Assembly: GCA_039707465.1 (NCBI GenBank)
Contig: CM077643.1
Span: 327,398,919 to 327,462,918, forward strand
Direction of reading: 5' to 3'
Length of the DNA stretch: 64,000 bases
DNA from: Rhabdophis nuchalis
Taxonomy: Eukaryota > Chordata > Lepidosauria > Squamata > Natricidae
This document shows positions 1,208 to 60,891 of this stretch, one piece after another. The first letter of the stretch is position 1. Each line of letters begins with the position of its first letter. The notes below the pieces were generated by a model that did no database searches, was not told where the DNA came from, and saw nothing but the letters and a program-made list of their open reading frames with translations. Made by a program: the position numbers and the translations under genes.

Positions 1208-1737
1208 TTAAGACCCTTTAATTTAAGAGGGTATACATTACTCTCCATTTTAAAAACAATGCACTAGGGCTTTAGATTAAAATAAAATTGAGTTGCCTCT
1301 ATTTATGAGTCAACATAAATGGAGCTACAACTTTCGTATATGACTTCATTCTCTCTTCAAACCAACATACATTTAGTCACAAGAATAAGGCTTGCTCAGT
1401 AAGTTGAGAGTACTTTTATGTTCAGAATCATTATCAGTTTGTGATTTAAAGAGGTATGATACTTTTTAACTTGCTATAATATTAATGCTACACCTAGATG
1501 AGTCTTCTCCCAGAGATTTTCCAATTCCTATAGAATATAGTTTATCTTTCACACTACCGCTAACAGAAGAAATCCTAAGATATGTCTTCCCCACTCTCTT
1601 GGGGTATACAATAGGGAAAAGAATATCCCACATTTAAATACAAAGGGGTTTTAAAAACATTTTTATTTATATGCAATAATTAGAAAGCAACAACATAAGC
1701 ACTATGCCTATTGAAATAAGAGGAACTATATATTATT

Positions 1738-4700
1738 CAAATTCAAATTCAAATTAAGATTTATTAACCGCACCCTCTCCCCACAGGGACCCGGGGCGGT
1801 GCACAGGCATAATTAAAAACAATATACAAAATACAAACATTACTTAAAATAAAATTAAATAAATCTACCTATGCTAAAAATATATAATTAAAACCCATTA
1901 AAATTTGTAATTAAAAGACAGAGAGAACTATTCAAGGCCGGCCAGTCGAAAGAGATGGGTCTTCAATTTTACCCGGAAGGAGCGGAGGTCGGTGGTCGTT
2001 CTAATATCAGGGGGAAGGTCGTTCCAGAGGGCCGGGCCCGCCACAGAGAGCGCCCTTCCCCTGGGCGCCGCCCGCTGACAAAGTCTAGTGGACGGCACCC
2101 GGAGAAGCCCCTCTCTGTGGGAGCGAATCGGTCGTGAGGATGTGTGGGGCAGGATCCGATCTCGCAGATAGCTAGGTCCCGAGCCATGGAGCGCTTTGAA
2201 GATGATAACTAACACCTTGAAGCGCACCCGGAAGACGACAGGTAGCCAGTGCAGCTCGCGCAGGAGCGGTGTTACATGGGCAAACCTGGAGGTGCCCATA
2301 ATTGCTCGCGCGGCCGCATTCTGAACTAACTGAAGCCTCCGGGTGCACCTCAAGGGGAGCCCCATGTAGAGAGAGTTGCAATAGTCCAGTCGGGATGTCA
2401 CGAGGGCATGGGTGACTGTGCGAAGGGCGTCCCGATCCAATAGGGGGCGCAATTGGCGAACCAGGCGAACCTGGTAAAACGCCCTCCTGGCCACGGCTGT
2501 CACTTGCTCTTCCATAGACAGCCGGGTATCCAGGAGGACACCCAAATTGCGCGCCCCATCCACAGGGGCAAGATGTTCGCCCCCTATGGCCAGCGTTGGA
2601 GAAAGCTGGTTGAATCGGGCAGCCGGAAACCACAGCCACTCGGTCTTGGTCGGGTTGAGCCTAAGTCCGTTACTTCCCATCCAGATCCGCACGGCTTCCA
2701 GGCACTGGCACATCACCGCTACGGCATCGTTGGGGTGGTCTGGGGTAGATATGTACAGCTGGGTGTCATCAGCGTACAGATGGTACTCTACCCCAAAACC
2801 ACGGATGATCTCACCCAGCGGCTTCATGTATGCATTAAACAGGAGAGGCGAGAGGACCGACCCCTGAGGCACCCCGCATGTGAGGGGTCTCGGGGTCGAC
2901 CTCTGCTCTCCTGCCCGCACAAATTGCGATCGGCCAGAGAGGTAGGAGGAGAACCACCGCAAAACGGTGCCTCCCACCCCCAACCCCCCCAGCCGATGCA
3001 ATAGGATACCATGGTCGATGGTATCGAAAGCCGCCGAGAGGTCTAATAGGACCAGGATGGAGGAACATCCCCCATCTCTGGCCCTCCAGAGATCATCTAC
3101 CAACGCGACCAATGCCGTCTCGGTGCTATGCCCGGGCCGAAAGCCGGACTGGCGCGGATCTAGATAGTCAACTTCCTCCAGGTGACGGGGAAACTGTTGT
3201 GCCACCACACTCTCAACAACCTTCGCCAAGAAGGGAAGGTTGGAGACTGGACGGTAGTTGTTCAAAAGAGCTGGGTCCAAAGAGGGCTTCTTGAGGAGGG
3301 GCCTCACCATAGCCTCTTTTAGGGAGGCAGGCAAGGAACCCTCACTCAAGGATGCGTTGATAACCTCTTGGAGCCAGCCTCGTGTCACCTCCCAGGATGC
3401 CAGTACAAGCCAGGAGGGGCACGGGTCCAATGAACATGTGGTGGCTCGCAGTCGCCCACGTAGCCTGTCCATATCCTCGGAAGTAACGGGGTCAAACTCC
3501 TCCCAAACAAGATCTCTCTCGTGGCATCCCACTGGGCCATGAATGGGGGCTAGCTCACTCTGTATCTGGGCGGTTTTCTCCTGCAGAAAAATCACAAATT
3601 CCTCTGCTCTACCCTGTAGCGGGGCTTCCCGCTCCCTCTGATGAAGGAGAGAACGGGTCACCCTAAACAGGGCGGCAGGGCGGTTTTCTGCGGATGCTAT
3701 GAGGGTAGCACAATGGTGACGTTTGGCCACCCTCAGCGCCACAATGTAAGTCCGTAAATGGGCTCTTACCTGTGTCCGGTCAGATTCAGAGCGGCTAGCC
3801 CTCCACCTTCTCTCTAGGCATCTCTTGCGGCGTTTCATCACCCGCAGCCCCTCAGTAAACCAAGGAGCCAGGGTGGTTCGCCGCCGCGAGAGAGGCCGCA
3901 AGGGCGCGACCCGATCTAAGGCTCCCACGGCCGCATTATTCCATGCGGCCGTGAGGTCCTCCATCGGGGCGCGGGTCAGGGATACAGGAAATGGCCCAAG
4001 CGCTGTCTGGAACCCGTCCGGGTCCATCAAGCGCCTGGGGCGGTACCAGATTGGTAACTCTGGTTCCGCCTCCCCGCGGAGGGGAGCAGCGGTCGGAAAG
4101 TCGAGTCGGAGAAGTGAGTGGTCTGACCATGACAAGGGTGTGATGACTATATCCCCTGTACCCAGATCACTCTTCCATTGGCCCGAGACAAAGATGAGGT
4201 CCGGCGTATGTCCACCCTCATGGGTGGGGCCTTGAATTACTTGGGTCAGGTCCATGGCCGTCATGGAAGCCATGAACTCCCGAGCTACCACGGATGATTC
4301 GCCCAACGATGGCAGATTAAAGTCCCCCATGACTATAAGTCTGGGGGTCTCCACTGCCACCGTAGCGATCACCTCGAGGAGCTCGGGCAGGGCTGCTGCT
4401 ACATAGCGGGGAGCCAGGTATACAACCAGCAAGCCCAACTGCCTCCCTAGGCCCCACTTCATGCAGAGGGACTCACAGCCGGAGGTCTGAGGCACAATGG
4501 ACTCTCTCGGCTCCAGGCCTTCCTTAATAATGACCGCTACCCCGCCACCCCTGCCTAGGGCCCGCGGCTGATGAAATGCGCGGTAGCCTGGTGGGCACAT
4601 TTCAACGAGGGGATGACCTCCCTCGGGGCCCAACCAGGTCTCCGCAATTCCTACCAGGTCCGGCTCCCCCTCTGACACAAGGTCACTAATGAGGGGGGCT

Positions 4701-5110
4701 TTGTTGACAACGGACCTGGCGTTGCAGAACATCAGCCGCAGACCCTGGCTCTGTATTCCCTGGCCACCTAGCCTGCGGGGGTTGTGGCACCCGACCGTTT
4801 GTAACCAACGGCTGCGTGCCACCAACCGGGAGGATGAGAATTGTCTCCCCTCGGTCCTGCCCCTCCCCACGACCCTCTGAATTGGTAAGCCCTCCTGAGG
4901 AACGACTCGGGTATCCCCCTTCCTTTCGCCTTCCGCTTCCCGCCGTCGACTGCTATCCTGGCCCTTACTATTGATCGTTGCTTCCGTCTCCATCTGTCTA
5001 TATCTTTTTTTAGACCCCTCCCCCACCCCAACCCTGGAACCCCCTAAAATCCGAATTAAAAAATTACAAAGAAACCCCCTGAGCTTGCGCTTCGCCCACC
5101 TCTCAGGAGC
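1738..5110 (-). mobile_element. CR1-type LINE with complete ORF2, antisense in RYR2 intron
   Basis: This non-LTR retrotransposon is oriented opposite to RYR2. It comprises a short 5' remnant (5027-5110), an open ORF2 (1928-5026) and a 3'UTR (about 1758-1927) ending in CCGCCCCGGGTCCCTGTGGG on the minus strand. It stops at a short TTCAAA-type hexamer array (1738-1757). Homology to the second copy (7223-10380) extends to about 5105 and then breaks, so it is 5'-truncated and no ORF1 is visible. No convincing target-site duplication was found. Confidence 0.9.
1928..5026 (-). CDS. CR1 LINE ORF2: endonuclease-reverse transcriptase, uninterrupted
   Basis: The 1032-codon reading frame has no stop or frameshift. 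Residues about 96-310 are an apurinic-type endonuclease domain: an NAR motif near 102, GIAETWLG near 126-133, the catalytic GDFN at 234-237 and SDHS at 301-304. Residues about 570-840 are the reverse transcriptase: SGFRPGHSTETALV, motif A LDLSAAFDTIDH (661-672), motif B GVPQGSVLSPLLF, and motif C YADD (751-754). The C-terminus carries the CR1-typical LWNDLPPDIR and ends RLAGLE. In the CR1 family this enzyme nicks target DNA and reverse-transcribes its own RNA. All catalytic residues appear intact. The start ATG is the first in frame and may not be native, because the 5' end is truncated. Residues 1-95 are not recognised as a domain. Confidence 0.92.
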   Translation of the reverse strand: MGEGSKKRYRQMETEATINSKGQDSSRRREAEGERKGDTRVVPQEGLPIQRVVGRGRTEGRQFSSSRLVARSRWLQTVGCHNPRRLGGQGIQSQGLRLMFCNARSVVNKAPLISDLVSEGEPDLVGIAETWLGPEGGHPLVEMCPPGYRAFHQPRALGRGGGVAVIIKEGLEPRESIVPQTSGCESLCMKWGLGRQLGLLVVYLAPRYVAAALPELLEVIATVAVETPRLIVMGDFNLPSLGESSVVAREFMASMTAMDLTQVIQGPTHEGGHTPDLIFVSGQWKSDLGTGDIVITPLSWSDHSLLRLDFPTAAPLRGEAEPELPIWYRPRRLMDPDGFQTALGPFPVSLTRAPMEDLTAAWNNAAVGALDRVAPLRPLSRRRTTLAPWFTEGLRVMKRRKRCLERRWRASRSESDRTQVRAHLRTYIVALRVAKRHHCATLIASAENRPAALFRVTRSLLHQREREAPLQGRAEEFVIFLQEKTAQIQSELAPIHGPVGCHERDLVWEEFDPVTSEDMDRLRGRLRATTCSLDPCPSWLVLASWEVTRGWLQEVINASLSEGSLPASLKEAMVRPLLKKPSLDPALLNNYRPVSNLPFLAKVVESVVAQQFPRHLEEVDYLDPRQSGFRPGHSTETALVALVDDLWRARDGGCSSILVLLDLSAAFDTIDHGILLHRLGGLGVGGTVLRWFSSYLSGRSQFVRAGEQRSTPRPLTCGVPQGSVLSPLLFNAYMKPLGEIIRGFGVEYHLYADDTQLYISTPDHPNDAVAVMCQCLEAVRIWMGSNGLRLNPTKTEWLWFPAARFNQLSPTLAIGGEHLAPVDGARNLGVLLDTRLSMEEQVTAVARRAFYQVRLVRQLRPLLDRDALRTVTHALVTSRLDYCNSLYMGLPLRCTRRLQLVQNAAARAIMGTSRFAHVTPLLRELHWLPVVFRVRFKVLVIIFKALHGSGPSYLRDRILPHTSSRPIRSHREGLLRVPSTRLCQRAAPRGRALSVAGPALWNDLPPDIRTTTDLRSFRVKLKTHLFRLAGLE

Positions 5111-5958
5111 AATAACTCAATTATGTAATTAAGTTAACTATCTGGGAACATATTAGCTATCCTTCTGTACCTTCAAAAATGGGTTCACTTTAATGTTCTC
5201 TGCCATCACTCCTGTAGTGGCTTCCTAGTTGATAGTCTTCAGTCTAGTTTTCTTTTTGTCTCTTGTCTCTGCAGCTTTATTTTCTTGAGTTAAATCTTCA
5301 GATTGCTTCTCAGCTTCTCACAGATGAACTTCCAGCTCTTGACACTGTATTGATTTAGCTGACAATACTTTTTTGCACAGTCTCATGTCTGCCCTTCTTC
5401 CCCTCTTGTTCCTCAATACTTATTAAGCTGGGGAAGGGAGGAGGTTCCCTGCTATTTCCAAACACTCTTATATTCTCTTCTTTCTCTCTGTCTCTGCCCC
5501 TTTTCCCATCTCTGCCTTCCTTCTTTTTCCTCCTCCTTGCCAGATCGAAAGTTAGGATATTGCCTCTTCCCAAATTAGTTTCCTTTCCTCATTTCTGTCA
5601 CCCTTCCCATTGCCAGGACTAATTTAGAGCCCGCAAATCTAAGATAAAGAGCTTATTGACTCTTCACATTATTTCTGTTTGCATTTAACATCCTACTCAT
5701 TGTAGAAGATCCTGCAATCCAGTTTACCAGTTCTCTTCAAATAACTGGGGTATAGAACCTATAATTTGTCAGGTGAAAGATCTTTCTAATTTGAACCTCT
5801 CTTTCCAATGAGGTAGATGCCCCAGAGGTATCTAAAGATACATAATTTTATATAAAAATATTACACCTTAAACACTGCATGATGAGGGTTCTGTAAAAAC
5901 TTGGGTTTAGATAAATAACTTTCCAGAAGGAAAAATAATTGTTACTATATTGTTTCAG
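5111..5958. other. RYR2: RYR2 intron remainder, pyrimidine-rich
   Basis: Intronic sequence with an unusually CT-rich stretch around 5460-5535. No transposon is recognised. The acceptor of the next exon (TTGTTTCAG) lies at its end. Confidence 0.6.
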
Positions 5959-7224: not shown

Positions 7225-10200
7225 AATTTGCAAACCGCTCTCTCTCCCCGAAGGGACTCGAGGTGGTGAACAGGGAATTTAAAAATACATATATAAAACC
7301 AACAGACATTATACAAATTTAAAATGAATTAAACATAGACCCTGCGCTAAAATCCCAGACTATCTAAAACTAATACCCCTAAAAATCCCTAATAAAACAG
7401 TTTGAATATTCAGCTTGAGGTAAATGGGTCGATTAACCCAAGCCGGCCAGGCAGAAGAAGTGAGTTTTTAGTTTTTGACGGAAGGAGCGGAGGTCCGTAG
7501 TTGTTCTAATTTCGGGGGGAAGGTCATTCCAGAGGGTCGGGCCCGCCACAGAGAAGGCCCTTCCCCTGGGCGTCGCCCGCTGGCATAGCCTAGTGGACGG
7601 CACCCGGAGAAGTCCCTCTCTGTGGGAGCGAATCGGCTGAAGGGATGTATGGGGCAGGATGCGATCCCGCAGATAGCTAGGTCCCGAGCCATGGAGCGCT
7701 TTAAAGATGATAATCAACACCTTGAAGCGCACCCGAAAAACAACAGGCAGCCAGTACAGCTCGCGCAGGAGCGGTGTAACCTAGAGGTTCCCATAACTGC
7801 CCACGCGGCTGCATTCTGGACAAGCTGCAGGCTTCGGGTGCACCTCAAGGGGAGCCCCTTGTAGAGAGCATTGTAGTAGTCCGGGATGTCACGAGTGCAT
7901 GAGTGACTGTGCAAAGGGCATCCCGGTCCAATAGGGGACGCAACTGGCGGACCAGGCGGACCTGGTAAAACGCCCTCCTGGCTACGGCCGTCACTTGATC
8001 TTCCATGGACAGCCGTGCATCAAGGAGGACACCCAAGTTGCGTGCCCCATCCACAGGGGTTACATGTTCGCCCCTTATGGCCAGTGATGGAGTCAGCTGG
8101 TTGTACCGGGATGCCGGAAACCATAGCCACTCGGTTTTGGACGGGTTGAGTCTGAGTCTGTTCCTTCCCATCCAGGCCCCCACGGCTTCCAGACACCGGC
8201 ACATCACCTCTATGGCATCGTTGGGGTGGTTTAGGGTAGATATATAAAGCTGCGTAACGTCAGCGTAGAGATGGTACTCTACCCCAAAACCACGGATGAT
8301 CTCGCCCAGCGGCTTCATATATGTGTTGAACAGGAGTGGCGAGAGGACCGACCCCTGAGGCACCCCACAAGTGAGGGGTCTCGAGGTTGACCTCTGCCCT
8401 CCTGTCAACACAAATTGCGATCGACCGGAGAGGTAGGAGGAGAACCACCGCAGCACAGTGCCCCTCACCCCCAACCCCTCCAGCCGATGCAATAGGATAC
8501 CATGGTCGATGGTATCAAAAGCCGCTGAGAGGTCTAATAGGACCAGGATGGAGGAACAACCCCCATCTCTGACCCTCCAGAGATCATCCACCAGTGCGAC
8601 CAATGCCGTCTTGGTGCTGTGCCCGGGCCGGAAGCCGGACTGGCGCGGGTCCAGATAATCAATTTCCTCCAGATGACGGGGGAACTGTTGTGCCACCACA
8701 CTCTCTACAACCTTCGCCAAAAAGTGAAGGTTGGAGACCAGACGGTAATTTACCAACAATGCTGGGTCCAGGGAAGGCTTCTTGAGGAGGGGTCTTACCA
8801 CCGCCTCTTTCAAGACGGTAGGCAAGAACCCCTCACCCAAGGAAGCATTCACTACCTCCTGGAGCCAGCCTCGTGTAACCTCCCAGGATGCCAGTACAAG
8901 CCAGGAGGGACACGGGTCCAATAAACATGTGGTAGCTCGCAGTCGCCCAAGTAACCTGTCCATATCTTCGGAAGTAACAGGGTCAAACTCCTCCCACAAA
9001 ACTGTCTCAAGATCTGCCTCGGGGCATCCCACTGGACCACTTTCGGTGGAGGCCAACTCGCTCTGAATCTGAGCGATTTTATCCTGCAGATATTCCCCAA
9101 ATTCCTCTGCTCTACCCTGCAAGAGGGCTTCCTGCGTCCTCTGTTGAAGGAGGGAGCGGGTCACCCTAAACAGGGCGGCAGGGCGTCTCTTGTGGTGTTT
9201 CATCATCCTCAGCTCCTCGGTGAACCAAGGAGCCAGGGTGGCTCGTCGCCACAGGAGAGGCCGCAAGGGCACGACCTGATCCAAGGCCCCCCGTGGCCGC
9301 GGTATTCCACGCGGCCACCAGGTCCTCCATTGGGCCGCGGGTCAAGGACACAGGTAGTGGCCCAAGCTCCGTCTGGAACCTATCCGGGTCCATCAGGCGC
9401 CTGGGGCGGAACCATTTAGGCGAATCAGGTTCCGCCTCCCCGCGGTGGGGTGTAGCGGTTGGAAAGTCAAGCCAGAGAAGTGAGTGGTCTGACCATGACG
9501 GGTATGATGGCTACGTCCCCTATACCCAGATCACTCTTCCACTGACCAGAAACAAAAATTAAATCCAGTGTGTGTCCTCCCTCGTGTGTGGGGCCCCGAA
9601 TTACTTGGGTCAGGTCCATGCCCGTCATGGAGGCCATGAACTCCCGAGCTATCTCTGATGATTCGCCCACCGATGGCAGGTTGAAGTCCCCTATGACAAC
9701 CAGTCTGGGGCTTGGGCAGGGCTGCTGACACGTCTGGGGCTTGGGCAGGGCTGCTGGGGAGCCAGGTACACAATCAGCATGCCCAACTGCCTCCCTGGGC
9801 CCCACTTCACGCAGAGGGACTCACAGCCGGTGGTCTGTGGTACAGTGGTCTCTCTCGGCTCAAGACCTTCCCTAACAATAACCGCTACCCCTCTATCCCT
9901 GCCTAGGGCCCGTGGCTGATGAAATGCGCGGTAACCTGGCGGGCACTTTCCTACGAGGGGAAGTCCTCCCTCGTGGCCCAGCCTGGTCTCACCAATTCCC
10001 ACCAGGCCTGGCTCCCCCAACCAGGAAAGAAAAACCTGTCTCCCATCGCACCTACCCCTCCCCACGACCGTCTTGATGGGTAGACCCTCAATGGAAACGA
10101 CTTGTGTATCCCCCCTCTTAATGGACCCTTCCGCTTCCTTCCTCGCTCTGCCGACCGACCTAGTAACATTCCCACCCCCAGCCTGACTAACCTCACCCTC

Positions 10201-11244: not shown

Positions 11245-11300
11245 ATATATACATACATACATACATACATACATACATACATACATACATACATACATAG
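11188..11300. repeat. compound microsatellite (TG)n(AG)n(ATAC)n
   Basis: Consecutive perfect runs of GT, then GA, then about 12 ATAC units. It borders the first copy of the hammerhead-bearing repeat. Confidence 0.95.
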
Positions 11301-11455
11301 GAAGGCTTGCCTGAAATGCTGGAAAGTGCCGGTTCAAATCCCAGTAGATGAAGTATGGCCAGCTGAAGAAGGCTAAAAAGCCGGAAATAGATCTATCCTG
11401 GTCTCTTAATTATTAAATCAGCCCTTAAAAATCTAACATATATATATTTATATAT
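11301..11455 (+). mobile_element. tRNA/hammerhead compound repeat, copy 1
   Basis: The copy starts inside a tRNA-like segment (B-box GGTTCAAATCC at about 11330). The hammerhead-like motif (11357-11403) follows, then a tail ending CCCTTAAAAATCTAACATAT and a TA run. A mariner-like element has inserted at a TA in that tail (11455). Confidence 0.7.
11357..11403 (+). ncRNA. hammerhead-like ribozyme motif, copy 1
   Basis: Stem I 5' strand GGCCAG is followed by the core CTGAAGA (11363-11369), stem II with GGCT and AGCC around an AAAA loop, then GAAA (11384-11387). A palindromic stem III TAGATCTA closed by the A-U pair follows, then C and stem I 3' strand CTGGTC. The outermost stem II pair is a mismatch (A against G), so this copy is slightly degraded. 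Confidence 0.6.
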
Positions 11456-11456
11456 A

Positions 11457-11884
11457 CAGTGGTACCTCGGTTCACAAACTTAATTCGTGAACTGACTCTG
11501 GTCGCGAACCGAATTGGTCGTGAACTGAGGCACAGTTTCCCATAGGGTTTAATGTAAATCCGGTTAATCTGTTCTGATCTTTTTTTTTGGTTTTTAAAGC
11601 ACAAAAAATATGAAACAAATACCGTATGTGCTAAAAGCATAACAAAAATAAAAAAAGTCACTGAAAGTACTCACAGTGTACTTTTTTCTGTGTCTCCTTC
11701 TCTCCACGATCTTCCTACAGGAAGTCACAACCATGTAACAGCCAGGAAATAGCATTAAAATGGCCACGGTTCCTGTTCGTGAACCGAAGCGGAGTTCGTG
11801 AACCGGAGCATATTTTGATGAACTTTTCTGTTCGTGAACCAAGTTGTTCGTGAACAGAAGCGTTCGTGAACCGAGGTACCACTG
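11457..11884. mobile_element. Tc1/mariner-like non-autonomous element (CAGTGGTACCTCGGTTC ends)
   Basis: The terminal inverted repeats begin CAGTGGTACCTCGGTTC and end GAACCGAGGTACCACTG, flanked by TA on both sides as expected for Tc1/mariner insertion. The 428-bp interior repeats GTTCGTGAACCG motifs and has no transposase frame. It interrupts the TA tail of a hammerhead-bearing repeat, so it is younger than that copy. Confidence 0.88.
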
Positions 11885-12120
11885 TATGCTGGTATTGCCA
11901 TCCTCGGGTGTTTTCCCATGTATATAGCATGGAATTTTTATTGCAACGTTTTGGCAAGATCTCACTTGCCATCCTCAGGCTTCGGTCTGTGACTATATAT
12001 ATATAGATTCGCAAAAAAGCAAAGGCCCAGGCCTGATGATGATGGGGGTGATCCCATCGAAACGTTGCAAAAACACCTTTAATTTTACACGGGAAAAGAC
12101 CCGAATAAACCAAAATCTAC
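11885..12120. repeat. repeat with two hammerhead-like hairpins (second family)
   Basis: Contains a minus-strand CTGAGGA followed by a GGCAAG/CTTGCC hairpin (about 11940-11985), and a + strand CTGATGA followed by a GAUGGG/CCCAUC hairpin then GAAACGTTGC (about 12032-12068). The motif ACACGGGAAAAGACCCGAAT follows, related to a stretch at 14880-14900. The layout resembles Penelope-associated hammerheads, but one unpaired base separates the core from stem II. The family is not identified. Confidence 0.4.
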
Positions 12121-12498
12121 ATATATATATATAGATTTTTAAGGGCTGAAAATAAAGAGACCAGGATGGATCCATTTCAGGCTTATTAGCGTTCTTCAGC
12201 TGGCCATACTCTTTCTACTGGGATTTGAACCGGTGCTTTCCAGCATATGAGGCAAGCCTTTCTATGCCTTGAGCTATCCGGTATCCCTGATACATCAGCC
12301 AATTTTACAGGACTCTATTAATGAGAGAATATTTTCACAGCTCCTGTTCAAGGGTCCCTTTAAGGGGAAGAGACTTAACGTCATCCCTCTCTGCCCTTCG
12401 ACTCAACCTAGAGATCATCCAGACAGAGAACCAATTAGTTTGCTGCTGTGTGAAATTTTTTAGATATGTGTTAGATTTTTAAGAGCTGAAAATAAAGA
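12121..12498 (-). mobile_element. tRNA/hammerhead compound repeat, complete 340-bp unit
   Basis: On the minus strand the unit runs from one hammerhead motif (12499-12545) to the next (12159-12205), exactly 340 bp apart. In order it has a short tail with AAAATCTAACACATATC, a spacer with TTCACACAGCAGCAAAC, a block with GGTTGAGTCGAAGGGCAGAG, and CTCATTAATAGAGTCCTG. A tRNA-like segment follows, with A-box TAGCTCAAGG and B-box GGTTCAAATCC (12221-12231), and then the hammerhead. The tRNA-like segment suggests Pol III transcription. No protein is encoded. Confidence 0.7.
12159..12205 (-). ncRNA. hammerhead-like ribozyme motif, copy 2
   Basis: On the minus strand: GGCCAG, core CTGAAGA, stem II around an AATA loop, GAAA, palindromic stem III TGGATCCA plus the A-U pair, C, and CTGGTC. 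One stem II position carries a change (ACGCT instead of AGGCT) that breaks a base pair. It forms a direct tandem with the copy at 12499-12545. Confidence 0.6.
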
Positions 12499-12545
12499 GA
12501 CCAGGATGGATCCATTTCAGGCTTATTAGCCTTCTTCAGCTGGCC
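12499..12545 (-). ncRNA. hammerhead-like ribozyme motif, copy 3 (canonical)
   Basis: All elements are intact on the minus strand: stem I GGCCAG/CTGGTC (6 pairs including one G-U), core CTGAAGA, stem II AGGCT/AGCCT with AATA loop (5 pairs), GAAA, stem III TGGATCCA, and a predicted cleavage triplet AUC. Position 7 of the hammerhead core is free, so CTGAAGA fits CUGANGA. Confidence 0.72.
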
Positions 12546-12793
12546 ATACTCTTTCTACTGGGATTTGAACCGGTGCTTTCCAGCATATGAGGCAAGCCTT
12601 TCTATGCCTTGAGCTATCCGGTATCCCTGATACATCAGCCAATTTGTGAAAATATTCTCTCATTAATAGAGTCCTGTAAAATTGGCTGATGTATCAGGGA
12701 TACCGGATAGCTCAAGGCATAGAAAGGCTTGCCTCATATGCTAGAAAGCACCGGTTCAAATCCCAGTAGAAAGAGTATGGCCAGCTGAAGAAG
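12531..12793. repeat. 115-bp inverted repeat joining two compound-repeat copies
   Basis: 12531-12645 and 12679-12793 are reverse complements with one mismatch, separated by a 33-bp spacer containing CTCATTAATAGAGTCCTG. Each arm includes the tRNA-like head and the first half of the hammerhead core. The right-hand copy is cut off just after CTGAAGAAG and continues into a different part of the repeat. Confidence 0.92.
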
Positions 12794-12838
12794 TCTCCTC
12801 CCCTTAAAGGGACCCTTGAACAGGAGCTGTGAAAATAT

Positions 12839-12842
<4 letters not shown>

Positions 12843-12924
<82 letters not shown>

Positions 12925-13104
12925 AGATATAGATATAGATATAGATATAGATATAGATATAGATATAGATATAGATATAGATATATATATATAGATATAT
13001 ATATATAGATATATATATATAGATATATATAGATATATATATATAGATATATATAGATATATATATATATATATGAGAATAGATATATAGAGATATATGA
13101 GAAT

Positions 13105-13144
<40 letters not shown>

Positions 13145-13184
13145 ATAGATATATAGAGATATATGAGAATAGATATATATATGA

Positions 13185-13252
<68 letters not shown>
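12843..13252. repeat. (TA)n / (GATATA)n / GAGAAT compound array
   Basis: About 64 bp of TA is followed by about 12 GATATA hexamers, then irregular TA tracts with interspersed GAGAATAGATATATAGAG units, and another TA run of about 60 bp. Open frames across it (tyrosine-isoleucine runs) are artefacts. It begins where a compound-repeat copy ends with GAAAATATTCTC. Confidence 0.95.
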
Positions 13253-13258
<6 letters not shown>

Positions 13259-13272
13259 ATATTTTCACACAC

Positions 13273-13275
13273 ATA

Positions 13276-13311
<36 letters not shown>

Positions 13312-13348
13312 TGTATGTATGTATGTATGTGTGTATGTGTGTGTGTGT
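13273..13348. repeat. (GTAT)n and (GT)n array
   Basis: About 14 GTAT units drift into GTGT. They directly precede the start (TTAGTTTTATGAGCTGATCA) of the next compound-repeat fragment. Confidence 0.93.
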
Positions 13349-13506
13349 TAGTTTTATGAGCTGATCAACACACATATCCCAAAAAAAATTTACACAACGT
13401 AATTCATGATTCTCTGTCTAGATGGTCTCTGGTGATGAGCCGAAAGGCAGAGAGGGAAACAGTATGTGTCCTCCCTTAATGGGGCCCTAACAGGAAGTTT
13501 TATATA
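13349..13506 (+). mobile_element. tRNA/hammerhead compound repeat, leader-block fragment
   Basis: Contains TTAGTTTTATGAGCTGATCA, TTTACACAACGTAATTCATG, the conserved GATGAGCCGAAAGGCAGAGA block, and CCTTAATGGGGCCCTAACAG. There is no tRNA-like or hammerhead portion. It ends at the centre of a palindrome. Confidence 0.65.
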
Positions 13507-13544
13507 TATATAAAACTTCCTGTTAGGGCCCCATTAAGGGAGGA
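13469..13544. repeat. perfect 76-bp palindrome
   Basis: The sequence from TCCTCCCTTAATGGGGCCC to its exact reverse complement is continuous with no spacer, centred on a TATATA run at 13506/13507. It joins two oppositely oriented compound-repeat copies at the same internal position. Confidence 0.96.
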
Positions 13545-13960
13545 GAATATTTTCACAGCTCCTGTTCAAGGTCCCTTTTAAGGGGAGGAGACTTAACGTC
13601 ATCCCTCTCTGCCCTTCGACTCAACCTAGAGATCATCCAGACATAGAACCAATTAGTTTGCTGCTGTGTGAATTTTTTTTTTTTTTTGATATGTGTTAGA
13701 TTTTTAAGGGCTGAAAATAAAGAGACCAGGATGGATCCATTTCAGGCTTATTAGCCTTCTTCAGCTGGCCATACTCCTTCTACTGGGATTTGAACCGGTG
13801 CTTTCCAGCATATGAGGCAAGCCTTTCTATGCCTTGAGCTATCCGGTATCCCTGATACATCAGCCAATTTACAGGACTCTTATTAATGAGAGAATATTTT
13901 CATAGCTCCTGTTCAAGGTCCCTTTTAAGGTCCATTTTAAAAATCTAACATATATATATA
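13507..13960 (-). mobile_element. tRNA/hammerhead compound repeat, minus-strand copy
   Basis: Parallels the 340-bp unit: leader block (GGTTGAGTCGAAGGGCAGAG on minus), TTCACACAGCAGCAAAC, hammerhead (13724-13770), tRNA-like head with B-box near 13785-13797, and a second partial leader at 13880-13935. It ends AAAAATCTAACA in a TA run shared with the next copy. Confidence 0.68.
13724..13770 (-). ncRNA. hammerhead-like ribozyme motif, copy 4 (canonical)
   Basis: Same structure as the 12499-12545 copy: GGCCAG, CTGAAGA, AGGCT-AATA-AGCCT, GAAA, TGGATCCA, UC, CTGGTC. All three stems pair. Confidence 0.72.
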
Positions 13961-13982
13961 TATATATATATGTTAGATTTTT
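13939..13982. repeat. tail-to-tail palindrome AAAAATCTAACA(TA)10TGTTAGATTTTT
   Basis: Two copies meet at their 3' tails through a shared TA tract, giving a perfect 44-bp palindrome. Confidence 0.95.
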
Positions 13983-14071
13983 TAAGGGCTGAAAATAAAG
14001 AGGCCAGGATGGATCCATTTCAGGCTTATTAGCCTTCTTCAGCTGGCCATACTCCTTCTACTGGGATTTGA
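13983..14071 (-). mobile_element. tRNA/hammerhead compound repeat, tail and ribozyme fragment
   Basis: Tail and hammerhead portion only, cut within the tRNA-like segment at GGATTTGAA, where it joins TTACACAACGTAAC of the next copy. It carries the hammerhead at 14002-14048. Confidence 0.68.
14002..14048 (-). ncRNA. hammerhead-like ribozyme motif, copy 5 (fully paired stem I)
   Basis: As copies 3 and 4, except that the stem I 3' strand is CTGGCC instead of CTGGTC. This turns the G-U pair of the other copies into G-C, a pairing-improving change. Confidence 0.72.
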
Positions 14072-14402
14072 AAAATTACACAACGTAACTAAACATGGTT
14101 CTCTGTCTAGATGGTCTCTGGTGATGAGCCGAAAGGCAGAGAGGGAAACAGTATGTCTCCTCACTTAATGGGGCCCTTACAGGAAGTTGTGAAAACAATT
14201 ATCTATACTAAATACTCCTGTTTTAGCTGATGAAATGGGCAGAACCAATTAGGCTGAATTGCTAGGCTTCTGCCTTGGATGCATTGCAGCCCCGGTTCGA
14301 ATCCCAGTGGAGTGTGGCCAACTGATGAGAGCTAATAAGCTCGAAATAGATCTATCTTGGTCTCTCAAATTTAAATAAATGTATTGATCAGCACATAAAA
14401 AC

Positions 14403-14405
<3 letters not shown>
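14072..14405 (+). mobile_element. tRNA/hammerhead compound repeat, second subfamily, near-complete unit
   Basis: A 334-bp + strand copy. It has the leader TTACACAACGTAACTAAACA, then the GATGAGCCGAAAGGCAGAGA block, GGGGCCCTTACAGGAAGTTG, a tRNA-like segment (about 14250-14313; B-box GGTTCGAATCC at 14294-14304), the hammerhead at 14316-14362, and a tail with TATTGATCAGCACATAAAAA. It ends in (TA)n then (TG)n. Its tRNA-like part differs from that of the 12-kb copies while the order of parts is the same. Confidence 0.7.
14316..14362 (+). ncRNA. hammerhead-like ribozyme motif, copy 6 (CTGATGA core)
   Basis: Stem I GGCCAA/TTGGTC, core CTGATGA (14322-14328), stem II GAGCT/AGCTC with AATA loop, GAAA (14343-14346), palindromic stem III TAGATCTA, and cleavage triplet AUC. 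Relative to copies 3-5, the innermost stem I pair changes G-C to A-U. Stem II changes AGG/CCU to GAG/CUC, and stem III changes GG/CC to AG/CU. Every change is compensated on the opposite strand. It has the classic core and is the best copy. Confidence 0.78.
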
Positions 14406-14744
<339 letters not shown>

Positions 14745-14750
<6 letters not shown>

Positions 14751-15130
14751 GTTTTATGAGCTGATCAATAAATTAGCCGATAGGCAGTAAGGGAAACAGT
14801 ATGTCTCCTCCCTTAATTGGGGCCTAATAATAACAGGTTGTTGTGAAACAATTACATATACATACATACATATATATATACGGGAAAACACCCGAATACA
14901 AGACCAGCATATGTTCCACAACACCCTGTTAGGGCCCCAATTAAGGGAGGAGACATACTGTTTCCTTTTCTGCCTTTCGGCTCATCACCAGAACCATCTA
15001 GACAGAAAGCCATGAGTTCCGTTGTGTGATTTTTTTAAATATGTGTGTTAGTTTTATGAGCTGATCAATAATCAATCAATCAGTCTCTCAGATTTATTTA
15101 TTGATCAGCTCATAAAACTAACACACATAT
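14745..15130. mobile_element. tRNA/hammerhead compound repeat, partial inverted copies
   Basis: A + strand leader fragment (14748-14850) faces a minus-strand one (14920-15060) containing the same GGGCCCCAATTAAGGGAGGA and CTTTCGGCTCATCACCAG blocks. The right end is a hairpin with 32-bp perfect arms, 15039-15070 and 15099-15130. No hammerhead is present in these fragments. Confidence 0.65.
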
Positions 15131-15382
15131 ATATATATATGTTACTAGAATAATTTATGACTTGCACTTTTACACTTTAATAATGCTGACTTAGAACTGA
15201 AATAATACTCTACTCTCACTGTTTTTGTTTTGAGGAGAACTGGCAACTCACAGTTCTCAAAACAACAGCTATTATCATTGGTTAGCTTGTCAGCATGAGT
15301 GCTTAGAGTAGACCCATCAGCTAAGATCATGTTCTTTTGAACTGAAGGAGCTTACTTGTTCCATTAATCAGTTGTACCATGC

Positions 15383-43867: not shown

Positions 43868-45674
43868 GTCATAATAATAAATAAATAATAACGTTGAATT
43901 TATTAACCGCTCCCTCTCCCCACAGGGACTCGGGGCGGTGCACAGGGAGAATAAAAACAATAAATATACAAAATACATACAATTTAAAACAGATTAAACT
44001 AATTCCTGTGCTAAAATCCCATTAACTAAAAATCCCCACTAAATATAAATAAACAATTAAAAAACCCATAGAGAGAGAGACTACCCTAGGCCGGCCAGGC
44101 GGAAAAGATGAGTCTTCAATTTCAGGCAGAAGGAGCGGAGGTCCGTGGTCGTTCTAATATCGGGGGGAAGGTCGTTCCAGAGGGCCGGGCCCACCACAGA
44201 GAGAGCCCTTCCCCTGGGCGTCGCCCACTGACAAAGTCTAGTGGACGGCACCCAGAGAAGTCCCTCTCTGTGGGAGCGAATCGGCCGTGAGGATGTGTGA
44301 GGCAGGATCCGATCCCGCAGGTAGCTAGGTCCCGAGCCATGGAGCGCTTTAAAGATGATAACTAACACCTTGAAGCGCACCCGGAAGACGACAGGCAGCC
44401 AGTGCAGCTCGCGCAAGAGCGGTGTTACATGGGTAAACCTAATGGTTCCCATAATTGCTCGCGCGGCTGCATTCTGAACTAACTGAAGCCTCCGGGTGCA
44501 CCTCAAGGGGAGCCCCATGTAGAGAGAGTTACAGTAGTCCAGTCGGGATGTCACGAGGGCATGAGTGACTGTGCGAAGGGCATCCCGATCCAATAGGGGG
44601 CGCAATTGGCGAACCAGGCGAACCTGGTAAAACGCCCTCCTGGCCACGGCTGTCACTTGCTCTTCCATAGACAGCCGGGTATCCAGGAGGACTCCCAAAT
44701 TGCGCGCCCCATCCACAGGGGCAAGATGTTCGCCCCCTATGGCCAGCGTTGGAGAGAGCTGGTTGAATCGGGCAGCCGGAAACCACAGCCACTCGGTCTT
44801 GGTCGGGTTGAGCCTGAGTCCGTTACTTCCCATCCAGATCCGCACGGCTTCCAGGCACTGGCACATCACCGCTACGGCATCGTTGGGGTGGTTTGGGGTA
44901 GATATATACAGCTGAGTATCATCAGCGTAGAGATGGTATTCTACCCCGAAACCACGGATGATCTCACCCAGCGGCTTCATGTATGCATTAAACAGGAGAG
45001 GCGAGAGGACCGACTCCTGAGGCACCCCACATGTGAGGGGTCTCGGGGTCGACCTCTGCTCTCCTGCCAACACAAATTGCGATTGGCCAGAGAGGTAGGA
45101 GGAGAACCACCGTAAAACGGTGCCTCCCACCCCCAACCCCCCCAGCCGATGCAATAGGATACCATGGTCGATGGTATTGAAAGCCGCCGAGAGGTCTAAT
45201 AGGACCAGGATGGAGGAACAACCCCCATCTCTGGCCCTCCAGAGATCATCCACCAACGCGACCAATGCCGTCTCGGTGCTATGCCCGGGCCGAAAGCCGG
45301 ACTGGCGCGGGTCTAGATAATCAACTTCCTCCAGGTGATGGGGAAACTGTTGTGCCACCACACTCTCAACAACCTTCGCCAGAAAGGGAAGGTTGGAGAC
45401 AGGACGATAGTTGGTTAAAAGAGCTGGGTCCAAAGAGGGCTTCTTAAGGAGGGGCCTCACCACAGCCTCTTTTAGGGAAGCAGGCAAGGAACCCTCACTT
45501 AAAGAAGCGTTGACAACCTCTTGGAGCCAGCCTCGTGTCACCTCCCAGGATGCCAGTACAAGCCAGGAGGGACACGGGTCCAATAAACATGTGGTGGCTC
45601 GCAGTCGTCCACGTAACCTGTCCATATCCTCGGAAGCAACGGAGTCAAATTCCTCCCAAACAAGATCAGCCTCT
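43868..45674 (-). mobile_element. CR1-type LINE, 5'-truncated (about 1.8 kb), (TAA)n tail
   Basis: The 3' end adjoins an ATAATAATAAATAAATAATA array (43868-43890). The 3'UTR shows the CCCTCTCCCCACAGGGACTC end block, then the C-terminal half of ORF2. Identity to the other copies stops at about 45674, within the linker between the endonuclease and RT domains. Confidence 0.92.
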
Positions 45675-45739
45675 CTATGTTGGCTTTTTTTCTGCTCTGC
45701 ATGCATCCAATTGGACACAGACCATACAAAGTGATCCAT
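44081..45739 (-). pseudogene. CR1 ORF2, RT and C-terminal part only
   Basis: The open frame spans 552 codons, but the first 21 or so come from flanking DNA; CR1 sequence begins near EADLVWEEF. The RT is present with SGFRPGHSTETALV and YADD. Motif A reads LDLSAAFNTIDH (second D to N) and motif B reads PQESVLSP where the other copies have PQGSVLSP. Loss of that glycine very likely inactivates the enzyme. The endonuclease domain is missing. Absence of stops shows the copy is young. Confidence 0.9.
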
Positions 45740-45779
45740 GGAATACTTTGTGCATTGAATGCAGTGTACATCCTTGAAA

Positions 45780-45935
45780 GCTCAACAATTGGTTAAGGCA
45801 TCAGGCCAGCTGGGTGACCTTGGGCCAGTCAACTCACTTCACAGGGTTGTTGTTGTGGGAAAATAGGAGGAGGATGGTATGTTAACACCTTGAGTTATTT
45901 GTAAAAATAATAAAGGAGCAATACAAGCAAATAAA
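45780..45935 (+). mobile_element. tRNA-derived SINE fragment
   Basis: AATTGGTTAAGGCATCAGGC, CAGCTGGGTGACCTTGGGCC and TTCACAGGGTTGTTGTTGTG then a CACCTTGAGTTATTTG end with AATAAAGG. Related to 36074-36265. Confidence 0.6.
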
Positions 45936-47716: not shown

Positions 47717-48072
47717 GAGGGATGCGGTGGCTCAGTGGCTAAGACACTGAGCTTGTCAATCAGAAAGGTTGGCAGTTTGGTGGTTCGAATCCCTAGTGCC
47801 GTGTAACGGAGTGAGCTCCCGTTACTTGTCCCAGCTTCTGCTAACCTAGCAGTTTGAAAGCATGTAAAAATGCAAGTAGAAAAATAGGGACCACTTTGGA
47901 GGGAAGGTAACAGTGTTCTGTGTGTGTTCGGTGTTTAGTCATGCCGGCTACATAACCACGGAGACGTCTTTGGAGAGCTCTGGCTCTTCAGCTTTGAAAC
48001 GGAGATGAGCACTGCTCCCTAGAGTTGGGAACAACTATCACATATATGCAAGGGGAACCTTTACCTTTACCT
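47717..48072 (+). mobile_element. Sauria-type SINE, full length
   Basis: The tRNA-related head (GATGCGGTGGCTCAGTGGCT; B-box GGTTCGAATCC) is followed by a body with GCTCCCGTTACTTGTCCCAG, TCATGCCGGCTACATAACCA and CCCTAGAGTTGGGAAC, and the 3' repeat CCTTTACCTTTACCTT. A 13-bp target duplication TATGTGATCACAA lies at 47704-47716 and 48073-48085. The left copy overlaps the duplication left by the adjacent hAT element. Sauria SINEs are a squamate retroposon whose 3' tail is thought to be recognised by Bov-B LINE machinery. Confidence 0.92.
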
Positions 48073-60613: not shown

Positions 60614-60885
60614 AGTTTTATGAGCTGATCAATAAATAAATCAGAGAGACTAGTATAGATCTATTTCGAGCTTTTTAGCTCTCATCAGCTAGCTCGAAAT
60701 AGATCTATACTAGTCTCTCTGATTTATTTATTGATCAGCTCATAAAACTAACACACATATTTAAAAAAATTCACACAAATGAACTCATGGCTTTCTGTCT
60801 AGATGGTCTCTGGTGATGAGCCAAAAGGCAGAACAGGAAACAGTATGTCTCCTCCCTTAATTGGGGCCCTAACAGGATGTTGTGG
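60614..60885. mobile_element. tRNA/hammerhead compound repeat, distant copy with inverted arms
   Basis: Two perfect 59-bp arms (60614-60672 and 60691-60749) with an 18-bp loop read GTTTTATGAGCTGATCAATA outward and meet at the hammerhead region. The + strand leader block follows: TTCACACAAATGAACTCATG, GATGAGCCAAAAGGCAGAAC and GGGGCCCTAACAGGATGTTG. It ends at a GATA array. It lies about 45 kb from the main cluster. Confidence 0.7.
60648..60694 (-). ncRNA. hammerhead-like ribozyme motif, copy 7
   Basis: On the minus strand: stem I CTAG against CTAG plus a G-U pair, core CTGATGA, stem II GAGCT/AGCTC with an AAAA loop, GAAA, stem III TAGATCTA, and cleavage triplet AUA. The H position is A rather than C, which the hammerhead rule allows. 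Stem I differs in sequence from the 14-kb copy yet still pairs. Confidence 0.7.
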
Positions 60886-60891
60886 AACAAT

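Follow-up and report, generated by a model that had tools for sequence, protein, structure and literature searches.

Retrozymes explain what hammerhead ribozymes do in animal genomes, and candidates have been put forward for their carrier enzyme. The non-long-terminal-repeat (non-LTR) retrozymes of metazoans (Cervera and de la Pena 2020; PMC7229834) include axolotl repeats of 330 and 350 bp and the newt satellite 2, and Penelope-like elements (PLEs) are named in that account as candidate carriers from their co-existence with retrozymes. Smalpha of Schistosoma is described as a short interspersed nuclear element (SINE)-like repeat with a hammerhead (PMC8490949). The Poseidon PLE of Anolis (PAc) is a purified example of the PLE protein class; in the experiments cited here, it cut and extended both strands, and its hammerhead required protein for cutting in vitro (PMC11167929). 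In the present study, a stretch of 64,000 nt from the snake Rhabdophis nuchalis (GCA_039707465.1, contig CM077643.1, positions 327,398,919 to 327,462,918 of the forward strand), hereafter the window, was analyzed. It carries seven hammerhead motifs, each in a non-coding repeat, hereafter the unit, of 340 or 334 nt with a G+C content of 0.424 or 0.413.

The unit is similar to metazoan retrozymes, as characterized in the sections of that account used here, in its type I hammerhead, a length within 170-400 nt, a G+C content below 45%, the lack of a coding frame, tandems from dimers upwards, and a weak palindromic stem III favoring dimers, as in newt and axolotl (PMC7229834). It differs in its squamate host, the vertebrate examples there being amphibian; in a conserved B box of RNA polymerase III (Pol III) type, no promoter being described in those sections; and in its two 3' end sites (T1 and T2), fold-backs, and PLE company, whereas PLEs are merely proposed carriers there. 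Smalpha is likewise SINE-like, ~335 nt long, and equipped with a type I hammerhead, but it belongs to another phylum, no PLE link is reported in the description consulted, and the likeness is one of description, not of sequence (PMC8490949). PAc shares with the unit, as interpreted below, a hammerhead upstream of the reverse transcriptase (RT) start region, two-sided priming, AT-rich targets, and an optional 3' tail; in contrast, PAc is autonomous with RT and GIY-YIG domains (PMC11167929), and the unit has neither frame, the longest ATG frames in the doubled unit being 53 and 39 aa. The parts of this system, namely retrozymes, SINE-like hammerhead elements of schistosomes, and PLE hammerheads, are already known. 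Searches of the open-licence literature found no squamate retrozyme, which may be in print elsewhere, and no account that combines a squamate host and a B box with a dimer-only stem III and an insertion record shared with a PLE.

Hammerhead motifs, covariation, and predicted folding

Both strands of the window were scanned with a descriptor (stem I of 4 bp, CTGANGA, stem II, GAAA, stem III, UH, and stem I'), and its seven matches were exactly the seven motifs of the original prediction, with no extra one. All seven have type I architecture, with CUGANGA, GAAA, and UH in order, three stems, and an opening in stem I. Descriptor motifs were absent from 200 dinucleotide-preserving shuffles of the window (0 in total), and the loose core CTGANGA-N8..22-GAAA matched 16 times against a mean of 3.20 expected. 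The exact motif had no match in collections of viral and prokaryote contigs.

Intact motifs are located at 12499-12545 (-), 13724-13770 (-), 14002-14048 (-), and 14316-14362 (+), the last belonging to the second subfamily. The 14002 copy has a G-C in place of a G-U pair adjoining stem I. Stem II is defective in two copies, by an A.G mismatch at its base at 11357-11403 (+), within a 5'-truncated unit piece (~11296-11453), and by a C.C mismatch (row ACGCT/AGCCT) at 12159-12205 (-), in the downstream unit of the tandem whose upstream unit holds the 12499 copy. These details, and the variants of stems I, II, and III claimed among the copies, proved to be as written when the motif letters were re-read. 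The seventh motif, at 60648-60694 (-), represents a third subfamily (CTAG/CTAG, UA cleavage site) and is the center of a fold-back, whose junction might by accident have created its 5' stem I strand; it is taken as a real subfamily because GCTAG..CTAGT recurs elsewhere in the genome and GCTAT..ATAGT also occurs. The form is type I and slightly more than minimal: a 4-nt bulge (UAUG or UGUG) 5' of GCCAG is followed by a second helix, with pairing in 301 of 315 cells for its four inner pairs and in just 77 of 158 for its two outer ones.

The window's own genome (1,917,733,297 bases, 1.92 Gb, in 348 contigs) contains at least 142 matches to a 341-nt query of the first subfamily (best 40 of 2290 first-look candidates scored) and at least 80 to a 351-nt query of the second (best 40 of 3363 candidates scored). 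Since the best matches were the ones fetched, young and complete copies are over-represented among the loci. A covariance model built from six window copies and searched against 76 loci at E <= 0.1 found 208 motifs, a count that includes the model-building copies and two places counted twice where loci L001 and L031 overlap. The core CUGANGA, GAAA, and UH and all spacings were intact in 168 of the 195 parsed copies, the 13 weakest having been left unparsed.

Covariation was assessed on the 150 best rows, 79 of them distinct, against 500 shuffles of the 3' letters. Stem cells were paired in 92.0% of cases, compared with 86.2% after shuffling and 36.5-45.5% with partners slid. Two-sided changes were found in 143 cells of the 79 distinct rows (59.4 ± 12.6 in shuffles), and the covariation score of 0.273 (0.173 ± 0.007) was reached by none of the 500 shuffles. 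The rise in pairs with a two-sided change was less clear (9 vs. 6.6; 20 of 500 shuffles), and the number of pair types did not rise over shuffles in the 79 distinct rows (444 of 500). All these figures are biased towards the hammerhead since the alignment was fitted to the structure; RNAalifold, run on the 150 rows without structure input, returned stem I and stem II, five two-sided pairs among them, and no stem III hairpin. Four pairs compensated on both sides and the free N7 account for all nine positions at which the main two subfamilies differ, a pattern that random placement yields in 4 to 12 of 1,000,000 draws. On these sequence grounds, the motifs are genuine and well-preserved type I hammerheads, which presumably self-cleave. 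The claim of a dispersed repeat with compensatory changes in all three stems now extends to 79 distinct genome-wide rows with a strong covariation signal.

Counted with its A-U closing pair, stem III is AUGGAUCCAU or AUAGAUCUAU and forms a 10-nt perfect palindrome too short to loop. Matches to Rfam covariance models exist, all below the gathering scores; the best were 29.0 of 34 bits for Hammerhead_1 (RF00163) and 31.7 of 52 for HH9 (RF02275), the latter described as a single conserved intronic ribozyme of amniotes (PMC6155905), in contrast to the repeat family here. At relaxed thresholds in the window, HH9 gave 26.3 bits at the 14316 motif and 19.6 bits at the 12159 motif. The palindromic, loop-less stem III probably lowers these scores. 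Sub-threshold microRNA families that appeared in the relaxed scans come from microsatellites and fold-backs and were discarded. For each of the three subfamilies folded, RNAcofold of two equal 45-nt cores predicted a double hammerhead that gained 9.0 to 15.4 kcal/mol over two monomers, whose best folds mispair the core. The dimeric, two-copy hammerhead is likely the active form because stem III is a 10-nt palindrome. The self-complementarity on which the original prediction based a dimer is present in the letters, and the dimer itself is a computed structure.

The carrier unit and its insertion record

The original prediction had recognized the hammerhead within a repeat; the carrier unit, its B box, and the PLE neighbors were absent from it. 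The unit is ordered as a head (TTCACACA or AATTACACA...), T2, Pol III-like boxes, the hammerhead, a tail, T1, and an A-rich linker before the next head. T1 lies 31-58 nt beyond the cleavage site, and T2 ~150 nt further on. Seven exact B boxes (GGTTCRANTCC) were counted in the window, compared with 0.17 expected, and six of these are within hammerhead elements, as GGTTCAAATCC at 12221-12231 (-), 12561-12571 (-), 13786-13796 (-), 11331-11341 (+), and 12753-12763 (+), and as GGTTCGAATCC at 14294-14304 (+). Of 164 genome copies, 119 carry the exact box, in 118 cases at -23 to -27 of stem I. Stretches resembling an A box were recognized by eye and are degenerate in some subfamilies. A Pol III promoter in Smalpha, to which this Pol III-type signal may be likened, was reportedly described by Ferbeyre in 1998. 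ARAGORN detected no tRNA in the window; a further run, at a 60% threshold, made 136 scattered calls without a consistent frame. A further Pol III-like head (TGGCTCAGTGG ... GGTTCGAATCC) at 47720-47800 (+), with no hammerhead core pattern nearby, probably belongs to an unrelated tRNA-type SINE.

The ends of insertions were examined in 222 uncut chains, with the overlapping loci L009, L015, L031, L061 (the window), and L080 left out. The 3' ends fell at T1 in 89 chains, at T2 in 85, and elsewhere in 48, and in the printed flanks both sites are mostly followed by (TA)n, (CA)n, (TATC)n, and similar repeats. More than 345 nt were covered by 52 chains and more than 680 nt by seven, the longest having 6.92 units; the loci were chosen as the best full-length matches, so this tandem share is biased upward. 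Units neighbored each other head to head in 26 cases, with gaps of up to 10 nt between variable 5' ends, and tail to tail in 30 pairs, of which 28 were listed, most of them showing T1 or T2.

No preferred 5' end was found in the 222 chains, eight of which began near the expected Pol III start (q150-170). A cut linear RNA as template was rejected: 5' ends should then pile up at the cleavage site, and just one of 64 lay within 3 nt of it. In 65 chains selected from the 222, of which 64 were resolved, five 5' ends lay at -40 to +3 of the site and 28 at +4 to +39. An excess just downstream of the cleavage site in the first mapping was partly a library-end artefact, and a blast-based excess at q211-230 (28 of 222), at the conserved B box, was absent from the library mapping; we take the latter to be an alignment effect in divergent copies. 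The scattered 5' ends would be explained by a template without ends, or by a multimer, read from T1 or T2. Private variants common to all covered units were present in five of 26 arrays. In the 6.92-unit array (L021, 169-2490), variants occur in two to six units, as in a local satellite. An older, separate subfamily with stem II GGACT/AGTCC and ~80% identity to the main unit forms its own array with a ~360-nt period at L005 (76-1108), adjoining a young array.

The Penelope-like neighbor and the origin of the unit

Three PLE fragments lie among the units of the window. The fragment at 12000-12118 (+) contains its own hammerhead (CTGATGATGATGGGGGTGATCCCATCGAAA, 12033-12062) and the start of an open reading frame (ORF), and stands tail to tail with the 12159 unit via (TA)n. 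The second, at 11884-11995 (-), is tail to tail with the 11357 piece, with an element with terminal inverted repeats between them, and the third, at 14870-14920 (+), consists of the 3' end only and is joined to the unit piece at 14912-15078 (-). The PLE frame opens inside the PLE hammerhead, as is also reported for anole PAc (PMC11167929). At least 43 PLE pieces were matched in the genome (best 40 of 328 candidates scored) with 97-100% identity, many at 100%, and by this sequence measure the PLE is young. Its pieces have two 3' ends, after AAAATCTACA and CCCGTGAAAATCTACGAAAACA, each before microsatellites. Reading of ORFs at the PLE loci revealed a 333-aa open frame upstream of the PLE hammerhead at L074. 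A GIY-YIG domain scored 23.1 bits at L069 (Pfam cut-off 22.6) and 21.8, below the cut-off, at L074, and none was found at L076; the genome-wide GIY-YIG search gave one match, with a stop (best 150 of 1267 candidates scored). A PDB search alongside this frame analysis gave no match. The nearest named relatives of the PLE protein, snake proteins among them, are from Ahaetulla (73%) and Phrynocephalus (68%), followed by Crotalus (80% over 44% of the query) and Vipera (79% over 34%), and many relatives contain RVT_1 and PF26215.

The unit was present in 12 of 18 PLE-seeded 1-kb windows, with L061 (the window) and L080 (which overlaps L079) left out. None of 20 control windows, each 1 kb long and placed at a round coordinate (1,923 N in 20,000 bases), held a unit (Fisher p = 6.9e-6), a contrast that does not separate a shared enzyme from a shared microsatellite preference. 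Conversely, 23 of the 60 unit-seeded loci contained a PLE piece. At L065, L066, and L071, a T2-ending unit is followed by a short TA-rich stretch and a PLE piece in the same orientation. Unit and PLE share a neighborhood, a 3' flank type, and an insertion geometry in one genome, and both look young, which makes the carrier idea testable in squamate cells.

The reading we favor, and consider fairly probable, is that the unit is a non-autonomous retroelement of the retrozyme kind that would be cleaved, circularized as RNA, and mobilized by the neighboring PLE. It fits best because the unit is retrozyme-like and because two start sites, priming from two sides, targets in microsatellites, and tandem and fold-back products together form a PLE-like geometry. 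Pol III would transcribe the units; in multimers, two hammerheads would pair via the 10-nt palindrome and cut at UH, and host tRNA ligase would close unit-length circles. The PLE reverse transcriptase and GIY-YIG nuclease would start on the RNA at T1 or T2 and prime on either side of a target that is AT-rich or a microsatellite; in circling the closed RNA, or following a multimer, they would leave tandem and fold-back copies. The full sequence of events, an amniote retrozyme whose dimeric hammerhead releases unit circles from Pol III RNA and whose circles are rounded by PLE RT/GIY-YIG from two internal sites at a double-sided break, is offered tentatively, as a possibility that we rate slightly below even. 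If true, PLE copying round circles would have left its record in the tandem arrays and fold-backs, retrozymes would extend to amniotes, where hammerheads were described as isolated motifs in the literature used here, and snakes would offer a living system for asking which enzyme mobilizes animal retrozymes.

Several observations weigh against this reading. The Rfam gathering score was reached nowhere in the window nor in 20 loci. By minimum free energy (MFE), neither single copies nor the predicted circle of the first subfamily adopt the hammerhead fold, and the predicted circles are not highly self-paired (circular MFE z of -0.31 and -1.19 vs. 100 shuffles each). The Rfam tRNA model had no match up to E 10 in two unit heads. 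No sharp cleavage footprint exists at the insertion ends, where a weak step just downstream remains. Against a simple circle, units differ by 1.68% within arrays and 2.61% between loci, and 18 of 26 arrays are more alike inside than outside while eight are not. Resemblance between the unit and the PLE at their 3' ends is just weak: in the better four of eight comparisons, 31, 228, 144, and 509 of 5000 random pieces reached the score, and in the other four 1432 to 3357. The anole PLE hammerhead was dispensable for insertion in vitro, according to the experiments cited (PMC11167929).

Part of this record would also be expected of a tRNA-like SINE driven by a long interspersed nuclear element (LINE) that acquired a hammerhead, with tandems produced by unequal crossing-over and the PLE a mere neighbor in microsatellite-rich DNA. 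The B box at a fixed distance from stem I and the A-box-like stretches fit such an origin, as do the satellite-like private variants of the seven-unit array L021, and the endings of both unit and PLE at microsatellites mean that shared targets alone could bring the two together. We nevertheless regard it as unlikely, given the lack of a tRNA match by model, the many PLE junctions within 150 nt, and three features unlike a one-ended SINE insertion: the two 3' ends, the frequent head-to-head pairs, and the runs longer than a unit that terminate, at scattered loci, at T2 or T1.

Descent from the PLE itself, as a deletion derivative (a shortened pseudo-LTR) that inherited its hammerhead and whose RNA is copied uncut, with no retrozyme involved, would account for the hammerhead shortly upstream of the 3' end, the partial tandems, and the fold-backs found in both elements, and anole PLE is reported to insert unprocessed RNA (PMC11167929). 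The two hammerheads differ, however, in stem II length and sequence, in stem III, and in their surroundings, the B box and head of the unit are absent from the 119-nt PLE piece, and blastn joins unit and PLE nowhere beyond short tails, so that this derivation appears distinctly improbable. Copies of the main subfamily from different loci are 95-99% identical, and identity alone therefore says little on conservation; the motif could have been kept in a dead repeat merely through the youth of its copies. Pairing is nevertheless kept in divergent subfamilies, and the nine subfamily differences, with their four compensated pairs and free N7, would hardly arise by chance, which leaves a dead repeat very improbable.

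Other unit pieces and elements in the window

The units of the window take several forms. The tandem at 12132-12645 (-) comprises 1.53 units of the 340-nt type (head, B box, hammerhead, tail, linker, and next head), and a single run of 1.13 units with its 3' end at T2 occupies 13543-13930 (-); both are chains of locus L001. A near full-length unit of the second subfamily with its 3' end at T1 is found at 14071-14407 (+). An inverted piece at 12645-12842 (+), head to head with the 12132 tandem, is broken inside stem II and ends at T2 before (TA)n. The piece at 13370-13499 (+) is a unit head behind an antisense tail, and that at 14912-15078 (-) contains tail, linker, and head and forms a fold-back pair with a sense tail at 15082-15142. 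The antisense arm of the 60648 fold-back, at 60694-60887 (+), has hammerhead, tail, linker, and head up to T2.

A short element at 11457-11884, which has inverted ends CAGTGGTACCTCGGTTC and is flanked on each side by TA, is located between a unit tail and a PLE fragment and looks like a non-autonomous DNA transposon. Long LINE-type reverse transcriptase frames, which we take to be L2-like, are located at 1928-5116 (-), 7845-9341 (-), and 44081-45781 (-), one of them comprising 1062 aa without a stop.

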